A stretch of DNA of 43,342 bases from NCBI RefSeq assembly GCF_002154695.1, contig NZ_MTAV01000202.1, forward strand, positions 1 to 43,342. The letters are read 5' to 3'. The stretch is from Nostoc sp. T09. GTDB taxonomy: Bacteria > Cyanobacteriota > Cyanobacteriia > Cyanobacteriales > Nostocaceae. The translations under genes and the position numbers were made by a program. The notes under the pieces are model-generated. The model worked only from the letters and a program-made list of their open reading frames with translations. It did no database searches and had not been told where the DNA came from. Within the stretch, counting starts at the first letter, position 1; every line of letters begins with the position of its first letter. Positions 235-12,921 of this stretch are shown here, one piece after another.

Positions 235-1263
235 TTATTGAGGAACTCTATTCCTAAAATTGCGATATTTAAGTTTAATATTGTTAATTTTTTGCTTTAT
301 AAAAATCCTAATAAACTTTTGCAACTGCATGAGTGCAGTTAGACGAATAAATCTTTGCGGACGCTGCTCAGGACATTTTAAATAGCGATAATGTAAGAAA
401 ACATCGCGGTAAGGAATATCAACATATTCACCAGAACAAAGCCGCGTAAAATATGAAGAAGCTACACTCATATAGTGAATATATGTCAGACGTTCCCCTT
501 GGTCATACAATATATTATCTACGGTATCAAATTGAGAATTCCAATGACAACCAGTAGCAGTGCCATGATAAGCGTAGTTATAGTAAGAAATCCCACTGCG
601 TAACACTAAGTAGTTTATAACTGTTTGATCAGAATCAGCCCAAGCTAGTGCATCAGCTTCGCCTGCTTCTAAATTTTCTAGCAGCTTGGCTAACATACTA
701 TCATCAAAAATCTTCTTTTTAGAAGCGAACCAACCAGAGCAAAAAATTAGATGACTGACGTTTTTTTTGTTAAAAATATTATCGAGTTTATCTTCTGTCC
801 AGTTAAAAATATAGTTTAAATCCGATTTATATTGATAGTCATTTGCAATCCAATCATACTCATCCAATTTTTGATAGACATCATCTAGTGGTTTCATCAA
901 CAGCGTATCTCCATCAAAGAAAATAAACTTGTCAAATGGGCCATCTAGACAGCAAAGTTTTCGATGTCTTTCTATACGGAAATTCTCTCCTAAACCATAT
1001 TCTTTCCATAGATTTAATGCTCTTGGGTGAGCTTTCCAGATACGAGAGCCAAAGTCTTCCCAGCGAGCTATGGAAGCATAGTCCTCAAATAAGGTGACAT
1101 TATCCCTTGCTGCGACCTCTGCCTTTACCTTATCTAACTGCTCATTATATGGAATGACACAAACCGGAATTTTTCTGCCAGCATTAGCTTCTATACTATT
1201 GAGTAAAGCAACCAGTTGGTCATAAACTACATCATTAGCTAGAGTGTAAATCCCATCACTCAT
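235..1263 (-). CDS. DxD-type glycosyltransferase-like protein, paralog 1 of 3
   Basis: Predicted 342-residue cytoplasmic GT-A-like glycosyltransferase that would transfer a sugar from a nucleotide-sugar donor; donor and acceptor are unknown. The N-terminus (MSDGIYTLAND) matches its two neighbours. A hydrophobic strand runs into the DGD motif (D117-G-D119), the expected metal/nucleotide-sugar site, and a conserved YIHY segment lies near the C-terminus. Start: the frame can open 36 bp earlier, but that would overlap the upstream gene. The ATG at 1263 has AGGAG about 8 nt upstream and aligns with the paralogs. It is the last gene of the minus-strand cluster. I vaguely recall database names of the form Npun_R2821/Npun_R2823 family for such proteins, but cannot verify this. 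The GT assignment is inferred from the DxD context and neighbours. Confidence 0.75.
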   Translation of the reverse strand: MSDGIYTLANDVVYDQLVALLNSIEANAGRKIPVCVIPYNEQLDKVKAEVAARDNVTLFEDYASIARWEDFGSRIWKAHPRALNLWKEYGLGENFRIERHRKLCCLDGPFDKFIFFDGDTLLMKPLDDVYQKLDEYDWIANDYQYKSDLNYIFNWTEDKLDNIFNKKNVSHLIFCSGWFASKKKIFDDSMLAKLLENLEAGEADALAWADSDQTVINYLVLRSGISYYNYAYHGTATGCHWNSQFDTVDNILYDQGERLTYIHYMSVASSYFTRLCSGEYVDIPYRDVFLHYRYLKCPEQRPQRFIRLTALMQLQKFIRIFIKQKINNIKLKYRNFRNRVPQ

Positions 1264-1279
1264 AAAAATACTCCTGATA

Positions 1280-2170
1280 TCAAGTATGGGCAGTAACAAA
1301 GGGGAATAAACGACGAGTTAGTTTTGGGATAAAAGCAAGTTTACCCTCATGAAGGTAGCGATAGTGATTCCACAATTCCCAATAGGGACTATTGCTTTTC
1401 ATCTTGATTCCAGCCCAATGGAGATATTTAAGCCTTTGTCCTCGGTCATAAAGAGCGTAGTCTTGTTGTTGGAAATTTCGTGAACCAGCCCAACTACCAG
1501 GCCCTCCCCCAGGAATTTTGACAAGATTACCGCGTTTAGCAATTAATTTGAGAACGAGATAATTGAGAAGCGGTTGGTCTGTAACTCCTTCAGAAAAATC
1601 AAAATATTCGCGATGCGCAGCACATTCGCGCAAAGTCTCATCCATCTGCTGCTCAGTAATAGCGCCTTTTCTCGAAGCCCAAAAACCACTGTTGAAAACA
1701 TCTTCGAGTTGATTATCTGAAAAAATCTGCTGCTCTTTAATTACTGAAGAAAAAATATTGCGCAGTTTGTCATTGGCATGATGATAATCACAACAGAAAA
1801 AATCAACTTCAGCAAGCTTCTCTAAATTTTCGGCAATTTTTTCAAAAACAACAATATCTGTATCAATATAAATAAACTCGTCTAAAGGTCCAAACCATGC
1901 TACCAATTTACGCATTTTGTTTGGTAAGGCGAGGAAATCCCGATCAAAGATTTCGCCTATACGTTTAGTAAATTGCTCAATCAATTCTAAATTTGGAAAA
2001 ATTTGCACATTGTGTAATGTACTCAGTTTATCTGCAACTTTTTGATAACTATCATTAAAAGGTATAAGATAAATTAGTACTTCCTGGTCATAATAACGAA
2101 TGCTATTGAGTAAGGCAATGGCATTATCTATGACATAATCGTTAGCAACTATATAAATTCCCCGACTCAT
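1280..2170 (-). CDS. DxD-type glycosyltransferase-like protein, paralog 2 of 3
   Basis: Predicted 296-residue GT-A-like glycosyltransferase, the shortest and most divergent of the tandem trio. It shares the N-terminal pattern (MSRGIYIVANDYVIDN), has FIYIDTD with the DTD motif at residues 103-105, and a YLHWAG segment in place of the YIHY/YLHY of its neighbours. It lacks the roughly 25-residue insert before the DxD seen in the other two. The start ATG has AAGGAT just upstream. Only 3 bp separate it from the preceding gene's stop codon, so translational coupling is likely. No signal peptide or membrane helix is seen. Donor and acceptor are unknown. Confidence 0.75.
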   Translation of the reverse strand: MSRGIYIVANDYVIDNAIALLNSIRYYDQEVLIYLIPFNDSYQKVADKLSTLHNVQIFPNLELIEQFTKRIGEIFDRDFLALPNKMRKLVAWFGPLDEFIYIDTDIVVFEKIAENLEKLAEVDFFCCDYHHANDKLRNIFSSVIKEQQIFSDNQLEDVFNSGFWASRKGAITEQQMDETLRECAAHREYFDFSEGVTDQPLLNYLVLKLIAKRGNLVKIPGGGPGSWAGSRNFQQQDYALYDRGQRLKYLHWAGIKMKSNSPYWELWNHYRYLHEGKLAFIPKLTRRLFPFVTAHT

Positions 2171-2173
2171 AAA

Positions 2174-3148
2174 TTATCCTTGGTGAGTTAACTTAAATTT
2201 TCTCAAAGCTCTGGTGAATAAATTGGGTGATCGTGCATCATAAGGTTTAGAAATATTTTGGAATGCTGGACGCTTATCAGATTCGTGTAAGTAGCGGTAA
2301 TAAAGAAATAATTCTCGATAGGGAAACTCAATATTTTCTCCAGCACATACTGCTTGATTGATGTGAGGAGGAACGCCAATATAATGTAAGTATGTTAACC
2401 GATTGCCCTTGTCGTATAAAATTTTATCTTTCTCTTCAAAATGCTTGGAAGTAACAGTACAGCCTGTAACTTGGTTATCAGGTAAGTGATTCGCAAAGTT
2501 ATAAACAGGTATACCAGACCTCATAAACATATAATTGAGAACTGGTTGATCGCCTGTAGGGTAAAGTATTTCTCTTTCTCCTGACTGAAGATAAGATAAT
2601 AACTCTGCTAATTTTTCTTGATTAAATAATCCTTTTTTTGAAGCATAAAATCCCGAACAAAATATTTCTTCCACCAGGCGATTTTCATCAAAGATTTCAT
2701 ACAATTTATTTGATTTAATATTATAAACTTTGTCTGGATGTTTAAACTGGAAATCATACACTACACAATCATATTCATCTAATTTATCAAACACAAAATC
2801 TAGTGAATTCATCACTAGAGTGTCGGCATCCAAATAAACAAATCGCTCAAAGGGTCCATCAAATGCACAAAACCTGCGATGACCACCATAAATTCTATAT
2901 TTGTTTCTATTCATGCTAGCAGGACTAGCCTTCAACATAAATTCATCCCAGCGTTGAATTGATTGTTGATTATCGTACAAGAATACATTAGGACGCTTAG
3001 CTATTGCGTCAGCAATCCGTTGGGTTTGCTCATCAAAAGGATAGATACAGACAGGGATATCCGAACCTAGTATCACATCAATACTATTGAGCAAAGCAAT
3101 CAGTTGATCATAAACATAGTCATTGCCAAGGGTACAAATACCATTCAT
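2174..3148 (-). CDS. DxD-type glycosyltransferase-like protein, paralog 3 of 3
   Basis: Predicted 324-residue GT-A-like glycosyltransferase. It is close in sequence to paralog 1: N-terminus MNGICTLGNDYVYDQLIALL, FVYLDADT with DAD at residues 107-109, then FCSGFYASKKG and LTYLHYIGV. The pattern fits a retaining, GT8-like GT-A fold, but I cannot assign a CAZy family with certainty. The gene starts 3 bp after the stop of the GT10-like gene, with no strong Shine-Dalgarno, which fits coupled translation. The arrangement of three paralogs suggests local duplication followed by specialisation for different linkages. Confidence 0.75.
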   Translation of the reverse strand: MNGICTLGNDYVYDQLIALLNSIDVILGSDIPVCIYPFDEQTQRIADAIAKRPNVFLYDNQQSIQRWDEFMLKASPASMNRNKYRIYGGHRRFCAFDGPFERFVYLDADTLVMNSLDFVFDKLDEYDCVVYDFQFKHPDKVYNIKSNKLYEIFDENRLVEEIFCSGFYASKKGLFNQEKLAELLSYLQSGEREILYPTGDQPVLNYMFMRSGIPVYNFANHLPDNQVTGCTVTSKHFEEKDKILYDKGNRLTYLHYIGVPPHINQAVCAGENIEFPYRELFLYYRYLHESDKRPAFQNISKPYDARSPNLFTRALRKFKLTHQG

Positions 3149-3151
3149 ATT

Positions 3152-4111
3152 TTATGAGTGTTGAGCAACAAAATTTGACAACCAATTCCCTAAATTTAGT
3201 TTGTGTAAAATGATTTGACGCGCTTCCGCGATCGCATCTTTAGCTGCATACCAAGCATCGGGGGTAGCAGTCACTTCTTGAATATAAGCACTACCTTTTT
3301 CGTCTAAGCTAGGTAATCTTAAAAAACTGCCTGGTGGTAATAATTTATCAGCAGCAGATCCACCATAATAAATTGGTAGACACCATGCCAACAAAGAATC
3401 CCACATTTTTTCACTTACATACCAACTATTGTCGGCATAATTTTCAATTGCCAAATTATAGTAGTACGGTGCCATCCCATGCCACTTGTGACCTAGTTCT
3501 CCCTTGGTCTGCGACCATTCAGATAAGTTACGACCATACAAATCAAACTTAATCCCACTTTCTTGGAGAGAACGCAGAAAATTTAACCGCTGACGATGGT
3601 TAGCTGTACGGTTAATTCCAGAGGTAATCCAACTGCATGGTGCAACCTTTTTCGGTATTGGCATTTCATTTAAATCATCAAATGATTTGGCATGATACCA
3701 AATAGCAGGCATATAGTCAGGAACAGGCGCAAAATCATCTGGGCCAGTAACATAGCCACAATACTGCTGTGCTGTCTGATAATTATTTTTATTGATTTCT
3801 ACAATTTCATCTAAGGGTGGTTCGCGGAGAAAATAAATAATTCGCTCTTTAGAGACACCACGCAATAAAGATTCGATATTAACTTCTAGTTTTTGTTGCT
3901 GATTACGCAAACGATCTAACCAAGATTGTGGTGGGGATGGTTGGGGAAAATCAAATTGATAGAGTAACAAAAAATCTGGCTTTGGTGCGGTTGTCAATAT
4001 TTGGATATTGTCCCATAAGCCAAAATGATTAGGGGTTTGTTGCCACATCCAATCAGCACTTGTATTAAGTGATGAATAGCTGCTAATCATACCGATAGTC
4101 TTGATAGTCAT
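3152..4111 (-). CDS. GT10 family (alpha-1,3/4-fucosyltransferase-like) glycosyltransferase
   Basis: 319-residue protein whose C-terminal half carries the GT10 hallmark: YYNLAIENYADNSWYVSEKM at about 217-236, then WDSLLAWCLPIYYGG and LPPGSFLRL at about 258-266. In GT10 enzymes this region binds GDP-fucose. The N-terminal 150 residues are family-variable and probably form the acceptor domain. The start codon abuts the stop of the preceding GT4 gene (TAA immediately followed by ATG), so the two are almost certainly co-translated. Substrate specificity is inferred: some bacterial GT10 enzymes use GDP-sugars other than fucose, and no GDP-fucose biosynthesis gene is in the window. Confidence 0.8.
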   Translation of the reverse strand: MTIKTIGMISSYSSLNTSADWMWQQTPNHFGLWDNIQILTTAPKPDFLLLYQFDFPQPSPPQSWLDRLRNQQQKLEVNIESLLRGVSKERIIYFLREPPLDEIVEINKNNYQTAQQYCGYVTGPDDFAPVPDYMPAIWYHAKSFDDLNEMPIPKKVAPCSWITSGINRTANHRQRLNFLRSLQESGIKFDLYGRNLSEWSQTKGELGHKWHGMAPYYYNLAIENYADNSWYVSEKMWDSLLAWCLPIYYGGSAADKLLPPGSFLRLPSLDEKGSAYIQEVTATPDAWYAAKDAIAEARQIILHKLNLGNWLSNFVAQHS

Positions 4112-5371
4112 TTAAGTATTAATAATTTGTAGTTTTTCACTCAGTATTTCACCATCACCAGATAATGGTGGGCGCATAGAATATTCTAAAAAACTTAATA
4201 TTTTGGTAATTCTATTCTCCCAAGAAAATTGATGGGCAAAATCGATACTAGCGGCATAACCTTCGCTCTTCCTCGGATATGCCTCTAAAGCATGTTGAAT
4301 AGCTTCAGCAAATTTATATGGATTATCTGGTTCACTCCAAACAGCTACCAAAGGCGATTGCTTGAATTCCATTAAAGGTGGAATTTCCGTAGCGACTATT
4401 GGTGTTCCCGAAGCCATATACTGAAAAAACTTAACTGGATTAGTGAAATTCGCTGATTGTCCAGAGCAGTGAGGATGAGCTAAAAGATCAGCTGCTTGAA
4501 ACAAACTCACTAACCGTTCCCGTGGAAGTATCCAGCCTAAAAATTTCACGTTTTCTATATTTTTATTTTTGGCTATTTGCTGATAATCTTGTACTTGTGA
4601 TTCTGTCCCACCTGTTATGACAAACTGAATTTGAGGTAGTTCTTTGGCTGCGTCAATTAAAACATCAATTCCTTTAAAAGGATACAAAGCACCGGAATAA
4701 ACAACTAAATACTTACGTTGTTCTTTAAGTAATTCTTGTCGCCATGCTTGAGCTTCTTCAGGTTGTCTCAGTAAGAATGAATGGTTGAATCCGTTATGTA
4801 GCCAAACAACCTTTTCTGGAGGCATACCAGATTCTATGAGGCTTTCTCTGATAGGTTCCGACTGAGTTATAGCAATTTTAAAATATGGGTTGTGGACAAT
4901 TTCTAGCTCAAATTTCTTATCTTGATAATAATGACGTTCGTAGATAGTAACAATCTGATTTTTGACTGCGGCTTTGGCAAAATTCCAATCTCTAGTATGT
5001 ACAACTTTAGTATAGGGTAGGATATGGATAGGTAAATAGTATTTAGATACGAGCGTACTAGAGTTAGTGAATTTACTACCTACTTGATCAATAGGCCAAG
5101 GCATGGGTAAGGGAGCAACTTTCAGCTTTTCATCAATATCATAAAATTCAATAAACTCTGGATTTGGCCTTCTTGGGCGATAAGGATAAAGTAACAATAA
5201 GGGATTAAAAGAATTATTGAATTTATCTGGATAAGCTAAAACAGAGGAGTATCCTAAGTTAGCGGCGGCATTAGCACAAAGAACATCATGAATTTCGTGT
5301 GCTGTATCAGGTTTTAGTGAGATTTCCCCACTATAAAAAACATACTGGCTTTTTTTAGATGAATTGCTCAT
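4112..5371 (-). CDS. Glycosyltransferase family 4 (group 1), first of two
   Basis: 419-residue GT-B glycosyltransferase. The C-terminal nucleotide-sugar domain is clear: VVYSGALYPFKGIDVLI at about 223-239, VITGG near 251-255 and NPVKFFQYMASGTPIVATEI at about 311-330, the usual donor-binding segment. The N-terminal domain (about 10-200) is the acceptor half. It lies 45 bp after the ABC exporter and is fused stop-to-start with the GT10-like gene. It is cytosolic or membrane-associated, and its role is probably to add one sugar to the cluster's product. The exact sugar is unknown. Confidence 0.88.
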   Translation of the reverse strand: MSNSSKKSQYVFYSGEISLKPDTAHEIHDVLCANAAANLGYSSVLAYPDKFNNSFNPLLLLYPYRPRRPNPEFIEFYDIDEKLKVAPLPMPWPIDQVGSKFTNSSTLVSKYYLPIHILPYTKVVHTRDWNFAKAAVKNQIVTIYERHYYQDKKFELEIVHNPYFKIAITQSEPIRESLIESGMPPEKVVWLHNGFNHSFLLRQPEEAQAWRQELLKEQRKYLVVYSGALYPFKGIDVLIDAAKELPQIQFVITGGTESQVQDYQQIAKNKNIENVKFLGWILPRERLVSLFQAADLLAHPHCSGQSANFTNPVKFFQYMASGTPIVATEIPPLMEFKQSPLVAVWSEPDNPYKFAEAIQHALEAYPRKSEGYAASIDFAHQFSWENRITKILSFLEYSMRPPLSGDGEILSEKLQIINT

Positions 5372-5416: not shown

Positions 5417-7663
5417 TTATAGAGAAAAATTTTTCTCCAATATTTGTAATGTATCCAGTAGAGAAATAGCAGAATCATAATTCTCGCTGATTAATTGATT
5501 TTGCTGCTGAGAATCAGCATCAAAATTACCCAATAACAAATGTAAAGATCTAATCAATACATTGATACTGATATGTAATTTTTCGGAAAAATCACTATGT
5601 TTTTCCATATATGAATTACATTCTATTTTTTCGGCTGAATCTAAAACGAATTGCTGACTAGCTTTTGTGCTATCAATATCATTTAGCATATTAATCATAT
5701 CGAGAGTTTTTAACGCTGAATAATAGGATTGCTCGATTAATTCTTGCTTTTCTTGAGAATTGTCTACTATACCATCAATTAATAAGTTCAGAATGCCAAT
5801 TATTGAGTTAAGCTGGGTCCGCATATCGTGAGAAATTCCCAGTAACATAGAACGGGGCTTAGGAGAATCTTCGGCTTGCTCGGCAAATTGCATTGAGTAA
5901 AGGCGTGAGTAATAACCACCTTTTTCTAAAAGTTCTTTGTGGGTTCCTACTTCTACTACATGGCCATGATCTAATACGGCAATTTGATTGGCTTTTTGTA
6001 CTGTAGAAAGTCGGTGAGCAATGACTAGTGTGGTGCGATCGCGGCTGAGATCATCGAGTGCAACTTGTACTAATCGTTCCGAAACTGTATCTAAAGCACT
6101 AGTGGCTTCATCAAGAATCAGTATTTCTGGGTTTTGGAGTAGGGCGCGGGCGATTGCTAATCTTTGTCTTTGTCCACCGGATAACAGAACGCCGCGATCG
6201 CCAATTAAAGTATCAAATCCTTGGGGCAATTTGCTAATAAACTCATAGGCATTAGCCCGCTTTGCTGCCATGATAATTTCCTCATCGTTAACATCAGATC
6301 GCCCATAGCAAATGTTGTTGCGCACTGAGTCATTAAAGAGAAATGTATCTTGACTGACAATTCCCATAGCCTTGCGTAGTGATTTCATCTCGAATTCCCG
6401 CAAGTCGGTACCATCTAAGGTAATACAGCCAGAGGTAGGATCATAAAATCTACTTAAAAGGTCAGCTATTGTTGATTTACCTGCACCAGAACCACCTACT
6501 AAAGCTAATGTTGTTCCTTTGGGCAAATATAAATCTACGTTGTTAAGTACTAAGTTTTGATGTTGAGGGTAGGAAAAACAAACTTGATTGAAATATATTC
6601 CCTTCTGTAATGATTGATAGAGAATCGTCCCCCGATTCATCAATGGCTTATTATCTGTTCGTAAAAAGTCAGCCACAATATCTACACTTGCAGAAGTGTT
6701 AGCAAAGGTACTGCGTAGAACATTTAATTGAGAAATTAAGGGCAAAAGACGTAGCAGGACTAATAAATATGTCAATAGAACAGCGGAAACTGAAGTAATT
6801 TGTTGTGCAAATAAGGCACGACCTATTAAAACAATAACTATTAAAGCTATCATCCCAGTTACCTCGCTGGCTGGCATTATAGCTTCAGAATTAACCTGAG
6901 ATTCAAAATCTGCTTTTTCTCGATATCGAATTAATTTTTTAATTCGTTTATATTCTTTTTCTTCATTTCCAGTCGCCTTAACTAAGCGAATTCCATTTAG
7001 GACTTCTAGTACAGTAATAGAATAAGTTTTAGACATTTCCGAAAGTTCTGTACCAAAATATTTGGAACGAGTGATTGCGTACTGATTTACTAAAGTAATG
7101 AAAACCAATAAAATTGTAGTAACAATAGTCAATTGCCAAGAAATTGACAATAACAAAACTACAAAAACTAAAATAGTAATTACGAGAATTACTAATTTAA
7201 TAAAACTACCTATAGCACTAGCAGTACGACTAATTTCTCCACCAAGACTGTTAATTAAGTCACCGACGCGCATCTTAGCGTAATAACTTAAATCTACTTC
7301 TAGTAATAATGCCACCCCAGCTTCTCTCATATCTGAGGTTAATGTTCTTGTTAAAGAACTAGAAACAAGGGTACTCAGATAGGTGGCTAAATTTTTTAAA
7401 AAAATTATGAATATAATAGAGCTAGCCATCACCGCTAAGCGGTAATTATCTGGAACCTTATCGAAAGGATATATAATTATTTTTAAAATCGGGGGAGCGC
7501 CTGTTAAATTAACTTCTTGACCAACAATTTTAAGAATTATTGGTACAATTAATGTTGTACCAATACCATTAAATAAAGCGCCAGAAAATCCCAGAACAAT
7601 TGTTGCCAATATTCGCCACGGATAAGGTTTAAGAAATTTTGCTAAAAACTGAATGTTAGACAT
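5417..7663 (-). CDS. ABC exporter (permease-ATPase) with C-terminal tandem HisKA-like module
   Basis: 748-residue half-size type IV ABC exporter of the MsbA/HepA kind. About six membrane helices lie in residues 15-310. The ATPase domain follows: Walker A GGSGAGKST (390-398), signature LSGGQ (494-498), Walker B ILILDE (514-519) and switch His550. Typical exporters end near 600. This one adds about 145 residues containing GISHDMRTQLNSIIG (609-623), which looks like a histidine-kinase H-box with H612 as acceptor. A second hairpin (693-742) aligns without gaps to 611-660, with about 16 of 50 identities, but has Glu where the His should be. No kinase CA (ATP-binding) domain follows. It lies between two GT4 genes, so export of a lipid-linked glycan or glycolipid is likely. 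Phosphorelay control through the tail is inference. Confidence 0.92.
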   Translation of the reverse strand: MSNIQFLAKFLKPYPWRILATIVLGFSGALFNGIGTTLIVPIILKIVGQEVNLTGAPPILKIIIYPFDKVPDNYRLAVMASSIIFIIFLKNLATYLSTLVSSSLTRTLTSDMREAGVALLLEVDLSYYAKMRVGDLINSLGGEISRTASAIGSFIKLVILVITILVFVVLLLSISWQLTIVTTILLVFITLVNQYAITRSKYFGTELSEMSKTYSITVLEVLNGIRLVKATGNEEKEYKRIKKLIRYREKADFESQVNSEAIMPASEVTGMIALIVIVLIGRALFAQQITSVSAVLLTYLLVLLRLLPLISQLNVLRSTFANTSASVDIVADFLRTDNKPLMNRGTILYQSLQKGIYFNQVCFSYPQHQNLVLNNVDLYLPKGTTLALVGGSGAGKSTIADLLSRFYDPTSGCITLDGTDLREFEMKSLRKAMGIVSQDTFLFNDSVRNNICYGRSDVNDEEIIMAAKRANAYEFISKLPQGFDTLIGDRGVLLSGGQRQRLAIARALLQNPEILILDEATSALDTVSERLVQVALDDLSRDRTTLVIAHRLSTVQKANQIAVLDHGHVVEVGTHKELLEKGGYYSRLYSMQFAEQAEDSPKPRSMLLGISHDMRTQLNSIIGILNLLIDGIVDNSQEKQELIEQSYYSALKTLDMINMLNDIDSTKASQQFVLDSAEKIECNSYMEKHSDFSEKLHISINVLIRSLHLLLGNFDADSQQQNQLISENYDSAISLLDTLQILEKNFSL
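5435..5833 (-). other. Duplicated HisKA-like segment within the ABC exporter tail
   Basis: Sub-gene region encoding residues 611-742 of the exporter. The first copy begins SHDMRTQLNSIIGILNLL. The second begins SEKLHISINVLIRSLHLL and keeps S-Q, L-I, Y-x-S-A and L-D at the same spacing. A 32-residue linker joins them. Copy 1 keeps the acceptor His (codon 5828-5830); copy 2 does not. A family search would say whether both score as HisKA. Confidence 0.65.
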
Positions 7664-7719: not shown

Positions 7720-8880
7720 TTATAATCTGCTCATCACTTCTGCCAAAGTAGATGACATTGTTTCCAAACTATATTTTTCTACACATTTTTTTCTTGCTTT
7801 GATCCCTTTTGCATTTGCTGCTTCTAAATCCTCAAATATTAATTTGATTTGTTCAGCAATTTGTTCAGGACAACCAGGATCAACTAGATAACCAGTGTCA
7901 TCTAAAATTTCGGGAATATCTCCTACCCGCGTTGATAAAACTGGTTTAGCCATAGCCATTCCATCTGTCAATTTGAGAGGAAATTGAGCGTGAGCAGTTA
8001 GAGTATCTCGTTGGGGAACAACTACAATGTGAGCAGCGGCGACTACCTCAGGCATTGCCTCTACAGGGCATTTTGGCAACTTGATAATCCAACGACCCCA
8101 CTTTTGAATGAGTTGGTCGTCATAATCATCGTAAGGACTACCACCAACAATCACTAGTCTTAAATCTTGTTGATTCAATAAATCTAAAGCTATTAAGACA
8201 TCTTCAACTCCCTTATGAGGGCGTGGCGCTCCCGGAAACATGAGAATTTTATATTGAGACAGACCATAACGCTCTCTACTAACTTCAGGGTTATACTTCT
8301 GGGGGTCAAACATTGCCGTATCTTTGCCATTAGGTACATAAACTCCACCAAAGCGTTTTTGTAGAAAGTTAGTATCTATAGTCACTACTTCTGCTTTTGG
8401 CACTAAACGTTCTATCCACTGTAAATACAGTGGATGATCGGGAAATTTTAATGCTCCATTTTGTTTGAAAATATCTCGATATAATTGCTTCGGGTTAGGG
8501 TTATATTTCCATTCAAACCCACCATACCAACTCAGTTCCCAGTCATCTATATCTAAAAATAAAGGACGACGATGGCTAAGTTTGCGAACTAGAGATAACC
8601 CAAAACTTGTCGGTTTGGGCTTAACTGCATATATAATATCCCCATCTATTTTTTCTAACAGTTTTTTAGCTGATATGAAAAAATCAGGATAGTTTTTACC
8701 AGCAACATAATTAATAGGTATTCCTGAAGGAGGGATAGCGTAAATTTCTTTACCAAATAAAAAGCCTACTACTTCTACTTCATAATCTATTTTTTTGAGA
8801 ATTTGCGCTAGTAAAAATGCTCGAACTATTCCGCCACCAGCAAAATCACTAACTACTAAAGAAACTTTAGCTTTGCTCAT
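7720..8880 (-). CDS. Glycosyltransferase family 4 (group 1), second of two
   Basis: 386-residue GT-B glycosyltransferase. The N-terminus has the acceptor-domain glycine loop FAGGGIVRAFLLAQ (13-26). The C-terminal donor domain has FPGAPRPHKGVEDVLIAL (215-232), LVIVGGSPYDD (242-252) and PLKLTDGMAMAKPVLSTRVG (301-320). It lies 56 bp upstream of the ABC exporter and 8 bp downstream of the GT2 gene, in the same direction. It is probably a cytosolic enzyme that extends the cluster's glycan. Donor and acceptor cannot be read from the sequence. Confidence 0.88.
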   Translation of the reverse strand: MSKAKVSLVVSDFAGGGIVRAFLLAQILKKIDYEVEVVGFLFGKEIYAIPPSGIPINYVAGKNYPDFFISAKKLLEKIDGDIIYAVKPKPTSFGLSLVRKLSHRRPLFLDIDDWELSWYGGFEWKYNPNPKQLYRDIFKQNGALKFPDHPLYLQWIERLVPKAEVVTIDTNFLQKRFGGVYVPNGKDTAMFDPQKYNPEVSRERYGLSQYKILMFPGAPRPHKGVEDVLIALDLLNQQDLRLVIVGGSPYDDYDDQLIQKWGRWIIKLPKCPVEAMPEVVAAAHIVVVPQRDTLTAHAQFPLKLTDGMAMAKPVLSTRVGDIPEILDDTGYLVDPGCPEQIAEQIKLIFEDLEAANAKGIKARKKCVEKYSLETMSSTLAEVMSRL

Positions 8881-8888
8881 AACTATAT

Positions 8889-9935
8889 TTATTCACTACT
8901 AATAAAATTGCTGGTATTATAGCTTTTGAATATTGTAGTTATTTTCAACCAAATAGCTATGATTTTTTGCGATCGCGGACCTCGATATTTTTCATATAAT
9001 AAGAAGCTAGGAATAATTAATCTGATTTGGTAAATCAGTTTTAAGACATATTTGGAAGTAATTTTAATTCTCTGATTGAGTAAGTAAAAAGGTGGGTAAA
9101 ACATTGTTACCAACCTAGTAAAATTATTTGCTTCTTTTTCTCTAATTGCTTCTTTAATTAAAAAACTAATACCTGTTTGGCACAAAGGTAATAAATCCTT
9201 ATACTTGCTATAAACTGTTTCATAGAACATAATGTAATAATCTTTCATGTAAGACCAATTATTTGTTCTATTAAACTGGTGTTTTGTATAAAATGCCCCG
9301 ATCATTGGTGTGTAAACAAAATCTACACCAGCAAGTAAAAGGTCTAGTGGAAAATCTCTATCTTGCAGAGCTTTAAGTCGCTCATCAAAGATTTTTTTTT
9401 CTAGCACATGTCTATTCATCAGTAGACATTGCTGAAGTACAGGAAATGCAGAATCAGTTAGAAAATCCGGAATTAGCAATCGCTCAATTAATTGCTCTCT
9501 TGTCAAAGAACCGACAATATTTTCTTGTCTGTCGATAACTTCTTGGTCTTCATTTATAAATACTCGTTCATAATTTGTATAAAAAACAGTATTATTCTCA
9601 TTTATTTCCGGAGTTACATGAGTTAATTGAAATCTAATTTTATCCTCATGAATCCAATCATCACCATCTAAAAATTGAATCCATTTACCCTTGGCTTGCC
9701 TAAAACCAAAATTGCGAGTTGAAGATACTCCTCCATTTTCTTTGTAGAAGTAACTTACTCGTCGATCAAGGTTCATCAATTGCTTGGCAATTTCTTGAGT
9801 GTTATCAGTAGAACCATCATCTACAATAATGCATTCAAGGTCAGTAAATGTTTGTGCTAAAACGCTTTTAACTGAGCATTCTAGGTAGCTAGCTTGATTA
9901 AAACAGGTAACAATGATTGAAATAAATGGAGTCAT
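8889..9935 (-). CDS. Glycosyltransferase family 2
   Basis: 348-residue inverting GT-A glycosyltransferase. The classic GT2 N-terminus is present: ISIIVTCFNQASYLECSVKS (5-24), DDGSTDNT (39-46), GGVSSTRNFG (68-77) and the metal-binding LDGDDW (89-94). The C-terminal 130 residues are less conserved and carry hydrophobic patches but no clear membrane helix, so it is probably cytosolic. It sits 8 bp upstream of the GT4 gene. A HIP1 octamer lies in the 3' part. It could start or extend the glycan made by the cluster. Confidence 0.9.
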   Translation of the reverse strand: MTPFISIIVTCFNQASYLECSVKSVLAQTFTDLECIIVDDGSTDNTQEIAKQLMNLDRRVSYFYKENGGVSSTRNFGFRQAKGKWIQFLDGDDWIHEDKIRFQLTHVTPEINENNTVFYTNYERVFINEDQEVIDRQENIVGSLTREQLIERLLIPDFLTDSAFPVLQQCLLMNRHVLEKKIFDERLKALQDRDFPLDLLLAGVDFVYTPMIGAFYTKHQFNRTNNWSYMKDYYIMFYETVYSKYKDLLPLCQTGISFLIKEAIREKEANNFTRLVTMFYPPFYLLNQRIKITSKYVLKLIYQIRLIIPSFLLYEKYRGPRSQKIIAIWLKITTIFKSYNTSNFISSE

Positions 9936-10044: not shown

Positions 10045-11061
10045 TTAAAACTTAGAAATAGCGGGAACTTTGATGGAGATATTAGCACGATGTAAATAAT
10101 ACTTGAGTAGTGCTGTATAGATGCGATCCATTGAGGGCATTTGATAACTTTTTTCCGGTTCAGCGTCATGTGAACCCCAAATTACTGGAAAAGGATTTGG
10201 TTCCCATACCATTAAATTTCCTCGCTGATCATAGCTATAATCAAAAGCCATGAAGTCGAAACCTAAAATCTTTCTTGCCTGTTGTAACTTATAATGATTA
10301 GGGTCTTCTCCACTGAAGTAAGCAATCTCTTCAGCTATGATTGATTCGTTAGTTACGCGGTTGTCGTTATCACGAACTTCCCAAGATTTTGAAACCATTA
10401 ACGGGCCGGGAATACCTTCATCTCCCATAGCAAAGTAGCGATATTTACGATACAGTCCGTCCTCTCCCTTCGTATCTAAAAATTCCACGGCTATGGGAGC
10501 AATGAATTTGTCAAAAGGAACATTCTCTATTTCTTGAAGATGTTCTATGAAAAAAATGTCGCTACCATGTACCCAGTCTTCCCGGATAAAAAAGGGAGTT
10601 GATAACCCTCCTTGTGTCTTTTTAAAATTCTCTATGTCAGTGATAGGGATTGTTTTAGCAGTACGAATCCCTACATTGCTAATTAACTTAGATGCAATTG
10701 ATTTGATGGAATTTGAGAGATTATCTACAGGATTAACAATAGGAATATTATGTAAGTGGCATTGTGCCTCTATTTCTTTGACATATTGATAAATGTGAGG
10801 AAATCTTTCTTTAAGTGGGTCTTGTAACCAAGGTAAAAATAGAGCATATTTGTCCCAGTTAGTTATTTCATAAGGAAGATAATGAACTTCAAATAGGTGT
10901 GCGGCTTCTGGAACATTTTGCCTAACCCAATAAAGAAAGTAGTCATTATATGTAGACTGATGATCGCGTTGCCGTACAACAAGGATACGCTTGGGATAAC
11001 GAATGTTATTGATCGTCTCCCGAATTGCTGAAATTACTTGTTGGCGTAATTGATTGTTCAT
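10045..11061 (-). CDS. ATP-grasp domain protein
   Basis: 338-residue protein with an ATP-grasp signature in its C-terminal half. An ATP-binding strand region lies at about 155-200 (FFIREDWVHGSDIFFI, then PIAVEFLD). The Mg site is probably D274 with E287 and N289 in VWEPNPFPVIWG. ATP-grasp enzymes couple a carboxylate, through an acyl phosphate, to an amine or thiol. The N-terminal 100 residues are unfamiliar. It is the first gene of the minus-strand glycosyltransferase cluster, 109 bp before the GT2 gene. It may therefore add an amide-linked decoration (such as an amino acid) to the product. The substrate is unknown and the functional idea is inference. Confidence 0.75.
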   Translation of the reverse strand: MNNQLRQQVISAIRETINNIRYPKRILVVRQRDHQSTYNDYFLYWVRQNVPEAAHLFEVHYLPYEITNWDKYALFLPWLQDPLKERFPHIYQYVKEIEAQCHLHNIPIVNPVDNLSNSIKSIASKLISNVGIRTAKTIPITDIENFKKTQGGLSTPFFIREDWVHGSDIFFIEHLQEIENVPFDKFIAPIAVEFLDTKGEDGLYRKYRYFAMGDEGIPGPLMVSKSWEVRDNDNRVTNESIIAEEIAYFSGEDPNHYKLQQARKILGFDFMAFDYSYDQRGNLMVWEPNPFPVIWGSHDAEPEKSYQMPSMDRIYTALLKYYLHRANISIKVPAISKF

Positions 11062-12147: not shown

Positions 12148-12921
12148 ATGCAGGTCATCCGTCTCAACGCACTTTTCGATAACTATATATTCTTGCTGTA
12201 CGATTGCACACAAAATATTGCGGCGGTAGTCGACCCGGCAGAGGCAGAACCAGTATTAAAGCAACTGGCACAACTGAAAGCTGAGTTAGTAGCGATTTTT
12301 AACACGCACCATCATCAAGACCATGTGGGTGGCAATCAGCAGCTAATGCAACAATTTCCTGGGGTGACAGTCTATGGTGGAATCGAAGATCGCGGGAGAA
12401 TCCCGGGACAGCAGGTATTTCTAGAAGACGGCTCCCATGTTCAGTTTGCTGACCAAGTAGCTGAAGTTATCTTCGTTCCCGGACATACTCGTGCTCACAT
12501 TGCTTATTACTTTTCTCCTAAAATAGCCGACGAACCAGGCGACTTATTCTGTGGCGATACCCTATTTGCTGGGGGTTGCGGTCGTTTATTTGAAGGAACG
12601 CCTACACAAATGGTGAACTCTTTAAATAAACTCCGCTGTCTACCCGATAATACGCGTGTCTGGTGCGCTCATGAATACACCTTAAAAAATTTGCAATTTG
12701 CCCTCACCGTCGATGGTGAAAACGCCGATTTACAAAAACGCTTTGATGAAGTTAAGGCATACCGTAGCCGCGGGGAAGCTACCATTCCTTCACTGCTGGG
12801 AGTGGAGAAACGCACCAATCCTTTTTTACGCTGGGAGCAGCCAACACTACAATCAGCTGCTAAGAGTAACGATCCTGTGCAAACCTTTGCACGTATCCGA
12901 GGGATGAAAGATAAATTTTAG
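12148..12921 (+). CDS. gloB: Hydroxyacylglutathione hydrolase (glyoxalase II)
   Basis: 257-residue metallo-beta-lactamase-fold hydrolase that cleaves S-lactoylglutathione to lactate and glutathione in methylglyoxal detoxification, in the cytosol. The binuclear metal motif [10 protein letters not shown] is at 53-62 (H54, H56, D58, H59). Further ligands are H113 in VPGHTRAH and D137 in [16 protein letters not shown]. The C-terminal substrate domain ends in RTNPFLRW and a basic tail, as in glyoxalase II. Length matches the family. A DUF2817 gene follows 36 bp later on the same strand. Confidence 0.93.

Follow-up and report, generated by a model that had tools for sequence, protein, structure and literature searches.

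A cyanobacterial ABC exporter near the HepA family with a tail of two HisKA-like hairpins and a replaceable acceptor position

Where two-component signalling is linked to ATP-binding cassette (ABC) exporters, the link is usually made by separate kinases and by way of gene expression, and in sensors of the BceAB-BceS type, in which an ABC transporter works with a protein that bears a dimerization and histidine phosphotransfer (DHp) domain, the kinase is a separate and complete protein. Fusions of transporters with kinases are already known, as are DHp domains in which Tyr stands in the place of the acceptor His. The CbrA transceptor is described as an SLC5 transporter joined in one chain to STAC, PAS, DHp and catalytic ATP-binding (CA) domains (PMC13022988), DivL of Caulobacter as a protein with Tyr550 in place of His that lacks kinase activity and on whose DHp domain phosphorylated DivK still docks (PMC4211667), and RetS as a sensor kinase that replaces the DHp homodimer of GacS by a DHp-DHp heterodimer (PMC12148439). 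Here we describe a 748-residue ABC exporter encoded on contig NZ_MTAV01000202.1 of Nostoc sp. T09 (assembly GCF_002154695.1), a stretch of 43,342 nucleotides that was analysed as a whole and is called the window below. Behind its ATPase end this exporter carries a tail of two tandem hairpins that, as judged by sequence comparison, are related to the HisKA/DHp domain of histidine kinases. In limited searches of the open-licence literature, none of the titles and abstract openings listed mentions a HisKA tail on an ABC exporter, which is weak evidence of absence, and what appears to be new is an exporter family near HepA yet distinct from it that carries such a tail.

The open reading frame (ORF) encodes, as the original prediction had it, a complete transporter, with the ABC_membrane domain and the full set of nucleotide-binding domain (NBD) motifs of a half-transporter: Walker A (GGSGAGKS, residues 390-397), LSGGQ (494-498) and Walker B (LILDEA, 515-520). 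The tail begins at about residue 596 and its first hairpin opens with an H-box, SHDMRTQLNSI, at residues 611-621. The prediction had also proposed a tandem duplication with no CA domain behind it, and both points stand. Residues 611-660 align with 693-742 at 16 of 50 identities and no gap, the best ungapped match of the tail to itself (offset 82) has a BLOSUM62 score of 76, whereas 1000 shuffled versions averaged 27 and never exceeded 46, and the chain stops at residue 748, with HATPase_c absent from the Pfam matches listed for it. The proposed HisKA relationship was borne out for copy 1 by a direct match. The full protein matches Pfam HisKA (PF00512) over residues 606-663 with E 5e-6 and 26.9 bits, which is exactly the gathering score, and residues 591-748 alone match at 3.9e-7 and 30.4 bits, above that score. 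Copy 2 has diverged too far to be matched by itself: residues 684-748 give nothing in Pfam at E 1. All 66 aligned tails match Pfam HisKA at E up to 1, the best at 8.2e-14, and stray matches to PilB3_C and WipA_Phos turn up in many of them. A profile of the tail searched against PDB sequences returned DHp chains of kinases, GacS and RetS chains among them, the best (1.1e-5) being chain A of 7n0e, which we take to be the GacS DHp domain of the RetS-GacS complex. These matches support rather than prove a kinase relation, because viral spike chains appear in the same table from 6e-4 onward; the Pfam matches of the 66 tails are the stronger evidence. AlphaFold2, given the tail alone and a 66-row alignment, predicts the four helices that had been anticipated (predicted local distance difference test, pLDDT, 84; predicted template modelling score, pTM, 0.76), at window residues 603-629, 636-673, 676-712 and 718-747, where model residue n is window residue n+590. 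The tail shares with the HisKA/DHp domain of kinases the H-box, the hairpin and a score at or above the gathering score, and it differs in lacking a CA domain, in an unconserved acceptor, in the loss of the H-box Pro and in being fused behind an ABC transporter.

It is clear that the acceptor position, residue 612, is relaxed and replaceable in these exporter tails. It was compared in 149 distinct tails from the window's GTDB family, Nostocaceae (the window plus the tails from 213 of 215 loci that proved readable, with identical ones collapsed), and in 37 exporters from outside the family (all 36 non-family genomes found with the composite profile described below, plus a second exporter in G566). 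The family tails have His in 103 cases, Tyr in 38, Asp in 3, Val in 2, and Gly, Gln and Asn in 1 each; the outside exporters have Tyr in 35, Phe in 1, Arg in 1 and His in none. One set of relatives was found by patterns, one of them holding S[HY]E, and so leans towards His and Tyr; the genome searches did without that pattern and added the other residues. In the 73 relatives of the S[HY]E-pattern set the codons are CAC (47), CAT (9), TAC (12) and TAT (5), those for His and Tyr lying one transition apart, and on a tree of the ABC parts of 89 full-length family proteins (66 His, 23 Tyr) at least 10 changes between the two residues are needed, 4 of which are forced by strongly supported branches. 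Column 612 ranks 50th in conservation among 143 tail columns, with 615, 613 and 623 the top three and 619 sixth, and the residues around the acceptor are kept in nearly all of the 149 tails (E613 in 146, R615 in 147, T616 in 138, N619 in 143, G623 in 144); the window itself has H612, the acid D613 at +1 and T at +4. At position 617, where the kinase box RTPLN has its Pro, the tails have Arg (88), Gln (58), Cys, Glu or Asn (1 each), and none has Pro. In HisKA proteins the acceptor His and the H-box Pro are tied to phosphorylation and helix bending; most of the H-box has therefore been retained, these two residues excepted. The phosphotransfer role that had been proposed for H612 fares poorly on this evidence, as a conserved acceptor His is not found across orthologues (46 of the 149 family tails and all 37 outside exporters have another residue), and conservation largely passes H612 by, an outcome that had been named in advance as refuting, though His is still the commonest residue in the family.

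Of the 8 tails with neither His nor Tyr at 612, 7 also differ at 619 or 623, as against 4 of the 141 others; since a single genus contributes 5 of the 8, this is no more than suggestive. In that genus, g128, the loci L165, L183, L184, L185 and L234 have Val, Asp or Asn at the acceptor together with the change at 619 or 623, possibly a decay of the whole face in one lineage. There is also an apparent covariation of 612 with 643 in the family tails, a signal that clade structure could produce.

The tail is widespread in the family, and its presence in other cyanobacterial exporters, which had been raised as a check, was found. A two-hairpin profile matches 208 of 217 family genomes at 1e-12 or better, 188 of them reaching 2e-28 or better with their best match, the strength seen for the two-hairpin exporters whose sequences were read, and 20 with weak kinase-like matches only. 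The named relatives among the best 80 of 124 matches belong to Nostoc, Anabaena, Calothrix, Scytonema, Fischerella, Rivularia and other filamentous genera, which are mostly heterocyst-forming. Of 339 genomes sampled across the phylum, at least 60 were found to have the exporter with a composite profile of the end of the NBD and the first hairpin (24 family members, 29 from other families of the order and 7 from other orders of the class), a lower bound because the exporter-bearing family genomes G168 and G265 were missed. The tails of L040 and L041 have about 24 extra residues (for example NKNLIQTKILKAMRLNSKKFVEH) between the NBD and hairpin 1, which probably explains why the composite profile missed two genomes, and exporters of 772-776 residues may share this stretch. 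A search of the order with the raw tail mixed exporters with kinase-like ORFs, and its weak matches were set aside after a few had been inspected.

Outside the family, 31 of the 37 exporters are 665-691 residues long, and hairpins are single except in L275, L276 and L290, which have two, and for a possible degenerate second hairpin in L291. The single hairpin of L273 matches Pfam HisKA at 4.7e-7 and passes the gathering score; those of L283 (1.6e-5) and L274 (0.0014) fall below it. L297 has a tandem repeat directly ahead of the H-box (SHELRTRLSYEVRTRLNAML) and L284 a diverged version of it (SQELQNRLSYEVRTTLNGMI), and L291:889-3510(-), a further exporter of G566 with 873 residues, has a long extra stretch followed by a SYEVR hairpin and the possible degenerate second. 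An exporter tree rooted with five ABC paralogues from the window's genome unites all tail-bearing exporters in one clade (support 100) and, within it, the two-hairpin family of the window in another (100). The earliest branch is that of L275, L276 and L290, which group together with support 97, the remainder having 80. Two changes in hairpin number are required on this tree, with an ambiguous state at the base. A first tree of the hairpins groups copy 2 with the outside hairpins (support 94); the approximately unbiased (AU) test, with six rows dropped and the acceptor column masked, gives p 0.64-0.75 for all three groupings and so does not separate descent of copy 1 or of copy 2 from the single hairpin from a fresh capture of copy 1 from a kinase. 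The kinase ORFs most like the hairpin have 543-606 residues and the motif SHE[LI]RTPLNG followed by a similar second helix, and one of them has the arrangement GAF-HisKA-HATPase; a kinase of this kind is the probable source of the hairpin. In two genomes of one genus, G459 and G460, the exporter gene is accompanied, at a distance of about 4 kb, by another (L300:16542-18788(-) and L301:1326-3566(+)). In these second exporters it is copy 1 that is degenerate (ASEVRTRLN, ADEVQSKLN) and copy 2 that has the canonical box (SHEIRVRLN, SHQIRIRLN). The original prediction that only copy 1 has an acceptor is right for the window, where Glu694 takes the position in copy 2, but not for these second exporters, in which copy 2 has the His; on the evidence of two genomes, what is kept may be a hairpin with a full H-box face rather than copy 1 itself.

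DivL offers a parallel to such a relaxed acceptor. Tyr in the acceptor place (35 of 37 outside exporters, 38 of 149 family tails), Arg at +3 and a conserved face around the acceptor are shared, and a non-His residue in an otherwise intact H-box is found in all 37 outside exporters and in 46 of the 149 family tails (8 of them neither His nor Tyr). DivL differs in having PAS and CA domains and no transporter, the window's exporter has His, and the docking of a receiver is shown for DivL only (PMC4211667). The same source reports that R553A (+3), T557N (+7) and Y562A (+12) of DivL disrupt DivK binding and that Y550H leaves binding of phosphorylated DivK unaffected (PMC4211667). The +3 and +7 positions correspond to R615 and N619 of the window's exporter; position +12 is mixed in the family tails (F77, L35, V13, C11, S9, I2, Y2). 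RetS-GacS offers a precedent for a DHp domain that serves protein pairing in place of phosphotransfer, with the heterodimer shown only there (PMC12148439), and CbrA, which like the window's exporter has transporter and DHp domain in one chain, differs in being a full kinase with an SLC5 transporter (PMC13022988).

The reading we tentatively prefer, and which may well prove wrong, is that the tail is a silent DHp module attached to the ATPase end of an exporter of glycans or glycolipids, working independently of phosphotransfer and docking a partner on its bundle. Such a bundle may pair the NBDs as well. Docking would be its most likely use because copy 1 keeps the conserved helix face on which a DHp domain docks a receiver domain. 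After capture from a kinase, the acceptor would have been replaced by, or made interchangeable with, Tyr. In single-hairpin exporters, we infer, the two subunits would give one hairpin each to a four-helix bundle like that of a kinase DHp domain, situated below the two NBDs; in the window's family the second hairpin would allow each chain to build a four-helix bundle of its own. Such a tail would not depend on histidine phosphorylation, and a cytosolic partner that docked on the face of copy 1 could bias the closing of the NBDs and with it the export cycle. By analogy with DivL, a receiver domain might bind through R615 and N619. That a whole family of cyanobacterial glycan exporters is controlled by a receiver domain, or a kinase DHp domain, docking on a pseudo-DHp bundle is a bolder proposal and a rather doubtful one. 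If it were true, an ABC pump would be a direct target of two-component signalling with no phosphate passed to it, the logic of DivL having been moved from a kinase to a transporter, and the window's lineage would have turned a bundle formed in trans into a single-chain bundle by duplication. The exporter tails make up a natural series, from a single hairpin with Tyr to a double hairpin with Tyr and a double hairpin with His or Tyr, which makes DHp function without phosphate directly testable, and a kinase-related part welded to a pump in a syntenic glycan locus gives a handle on how surface glycan export might be regulated in these cyanobacteria.

DHp hairpins pair by nature, and one rival is a pure dimer clamp: a C-terminal extension of the exporter whose sole task would be to keep the homodimer's two NBDs near each other, with no partner and no signal. 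Single-hairpin exporters would need a second subunit to complete a four-helix bundle, and the linker at 595-604, of low confidence in the full-length AlphaFold2 model and perhaps flexible, suits a clamp too, as does the reported finding that a C-terminal helix of the NBD is essential for activity of the exporter BmrA (PMC11774805). A clamp, however, needs no conserved face of the kind that copy 1 has: positions 616, 619 and 623, presumably exposed (column entropies 0.53, 0.27 and 0.24), are as conserved as the core residues L618 (0.33), L625 (0.27) and I622 (0.48). The counterparts of 616 and 623 in copy 2 vary (Thr in 64 and Gly in 17 of 149), and a clamp would need neither. It is on these grounds a possible explanation, and on balance an unlikely one. 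A phospho-relay, in which a kinase acting in trans phosphorylates H612 where it is present and so sets the state of the exporter, draws on the His of 103 family tails, on the window's own His with an acid at +1 and Thr at +4, and on the existence of kinases whose hairpin is so similar that a related one could phosphorylate it. The tails without His in and outside the family, the repeated switches between His and Tyr and the loss of the Pro at +5 in all 149 tails speak against it, as does the want of a kinase gene in the searched flanks, and we consider it improbable. More improbable still is a RetS-like decoy, by which the exporter hairpin pairs with the DHp domain of a free histidine kinase that reads the exporter or is silenced by it. 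The RetS-GacS heterodimer, the GacS and RetS chains among the PDB matches and the close resemblance to the hairpin of a cyanobacterial kinase group are all in keeping with such pairing, but no kinase gene was found at the locus and the two-hairpin tail is modelled as four helices of one chain, most like single-chain four-helix bundles, which would leave no free pairing face. That the tail is a chance helical extension merely resembling HisKA is scarcely credible: copy 2 alone has no Pfam match and helical stray matches do occur (viral spikes, PilB3_C, WipA_Phos), but every one of the 66 tails matches HisKA and the H-box is in register and near-invariant in 149.

Several observations weigh against a silent docking module as well. 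His is the commonest residue at 612 in the family, which pure neutrality does not explain. Parsimony places Tyr at the base of both the exporter clade and the two-hairpin clade, while a two-rate likelihood model gives a probability of His of 0.34 at the first and 0.99 at the second, the latter favouring the phospho-relay; there may have been a lineage-specific return to phosphotransfer. The exposure of 616, 619 and 623 on the acceptor's face is presumed from their placement in kinase DHp helices, and copy 2 partly retains E/D695 (123), R697 (121) and N701 (108 of 149), so that the persistence of E, R and N there could reflect a structural role. A Foldseek search of the tail model against the PDB turned up generic four-helix bundles only, none of them reaching E 0.001, and the full-length AlphaFold2 model is moderate (pLDDT 72, pTM 0.56) and too weak to place the tail relative to the NBD. 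As to partners, 96 places were surveyed (the window and 95 fetched loci, at least 5 of them fetched twice, with flanks of up to 6-10 kb). When 8 kinase ORFs, including one that has a receiver domain, were searched by BLAST against the window and the 95 family flanks, no histidine-kinase gene came up; the sole match was the cut exporter tail of L056, and 148 ORFs outside the 25 largest neighbour clusters were covered by this BLAST alone. Of 16 outside loci, a single one has a receiver gene, some 8 kb away from the exporter.

The exporter part of the protein is nearest to the heterocyst polysaccharide ABC exporter HepA. HepA (NF045513) is the best-scoring named family, over residues 5-593, at 567 bits against a cut-off of 725, and the relatives L053 and L273, at 576 bits each, are below that cut-off too; that cut-off is exceeded in the window's genome by two HepA-family proteins (936 and 973 bits), both without the tail, and the window protein and its kin form a clade separate from the five paralogues of that genome. 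MsbA (TIGR02203) is related as well, at 446 bits below a cut-off of 602, with a match that stops at residue 595, ahead of the tail. Glycosyltransferase surroundings are shared with HepA, and a glycan or glycolipid is the inferred substrate because of this context. Across the 96 places the most constant neighbours (Table 1) are the upstream GT4 gene at 7720 (95), the GT8-like (93) and GT10 (93) genes, the 1280-like gene (88), the GT4 gene at 4112 (79) and the glyoxalase II gene (79). Further recurrent neighbours, with one representative of each scanned, are a sugar-nucleotide transferase (51 places), a GT11 (18) and three GT4 groups (8, 5 and 5); an ABC1-type atypical kinase, which is not a histidine kinase, lies near the exporter in 18 places, and two more recurrent neighbours (34 and 24 places) had no Pfam match at 0.001. 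The wider locus was seen in 16 of the 36 outside genomes, with a homologue of the 7720 GT4 gene in 15 of the 16 and glyoxalase II in 10.

Table 1. Coordinates in the window of the exporter gene, its parts and the neighbouring genes.
Feature	Position	Strand	Basis
ABC exporter half-transporter, 748 residues, near but outside HepA family, with HisKA-related tail	5417..7663	-	ORF, Pfam, NCBIfam, tree
Transmembrane domain, ABC_membrane, residues 42-304	6752..7540	-	Pfam
Nucleotide-binding domain, ABC_tran, residues 373-522, with Walker A, LSGGQ and Walker B	6098..6547	-	Pfam, motifs
Hairpin copy 1, residues 603-673, HisKA/DHp-like, H-box SHDMRTQLNS	5645..5857	-	Pfam HisKA, modelled helices
CAC codon, His612, would-be phospho-acceptor	5828..5830	-	sequence
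Hairpin copy 2, residues 676-747, diverged, Glu694 in acceptor position	5423..5638	-	self-alignment, modelled helices
GT4 glycosyltransferase, upstream neighbour of exporter, most constant partner	7720..8880	-	Pfam, neighbourhood counts
GT4 glycosyltransferase, downstream neighbour of exporter	4112..5371	-	Pfam, neighbourhood counts
GT10 (fucosyltransferase-like) glycosyltransferase	3152..4111	-	Pfam, neighbourhood counts
GT8-like glycosyltransferase	2174..3148	-	Pfam, neighbourhood counts
Conserved neighbour, no Pfam match at 0.01	1280..2170	-	neighbourhood counts
Cluster member, no Pfam match at 0.01	235..1299	-	ORF list
GT2 glycosyltransferase	8889..9935	-	Pfam
Hydroxyacylglutathione hydrolase (glyoxalase II), syntenic marker of locus	12148..12921	+	Pfam, neighbourhood counts

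At window positions 10045-11061 there is an ORF of 338 residues with no Pfam match at 0.01, which is present in 8 of the 96 places. The ORFs that start at 235, 1280 and 2174 are consecutive and their openings are alike by eye; the GT8 match of Pfam is in the last of them only, and the three look like a tandem family of glycosyltransferases.

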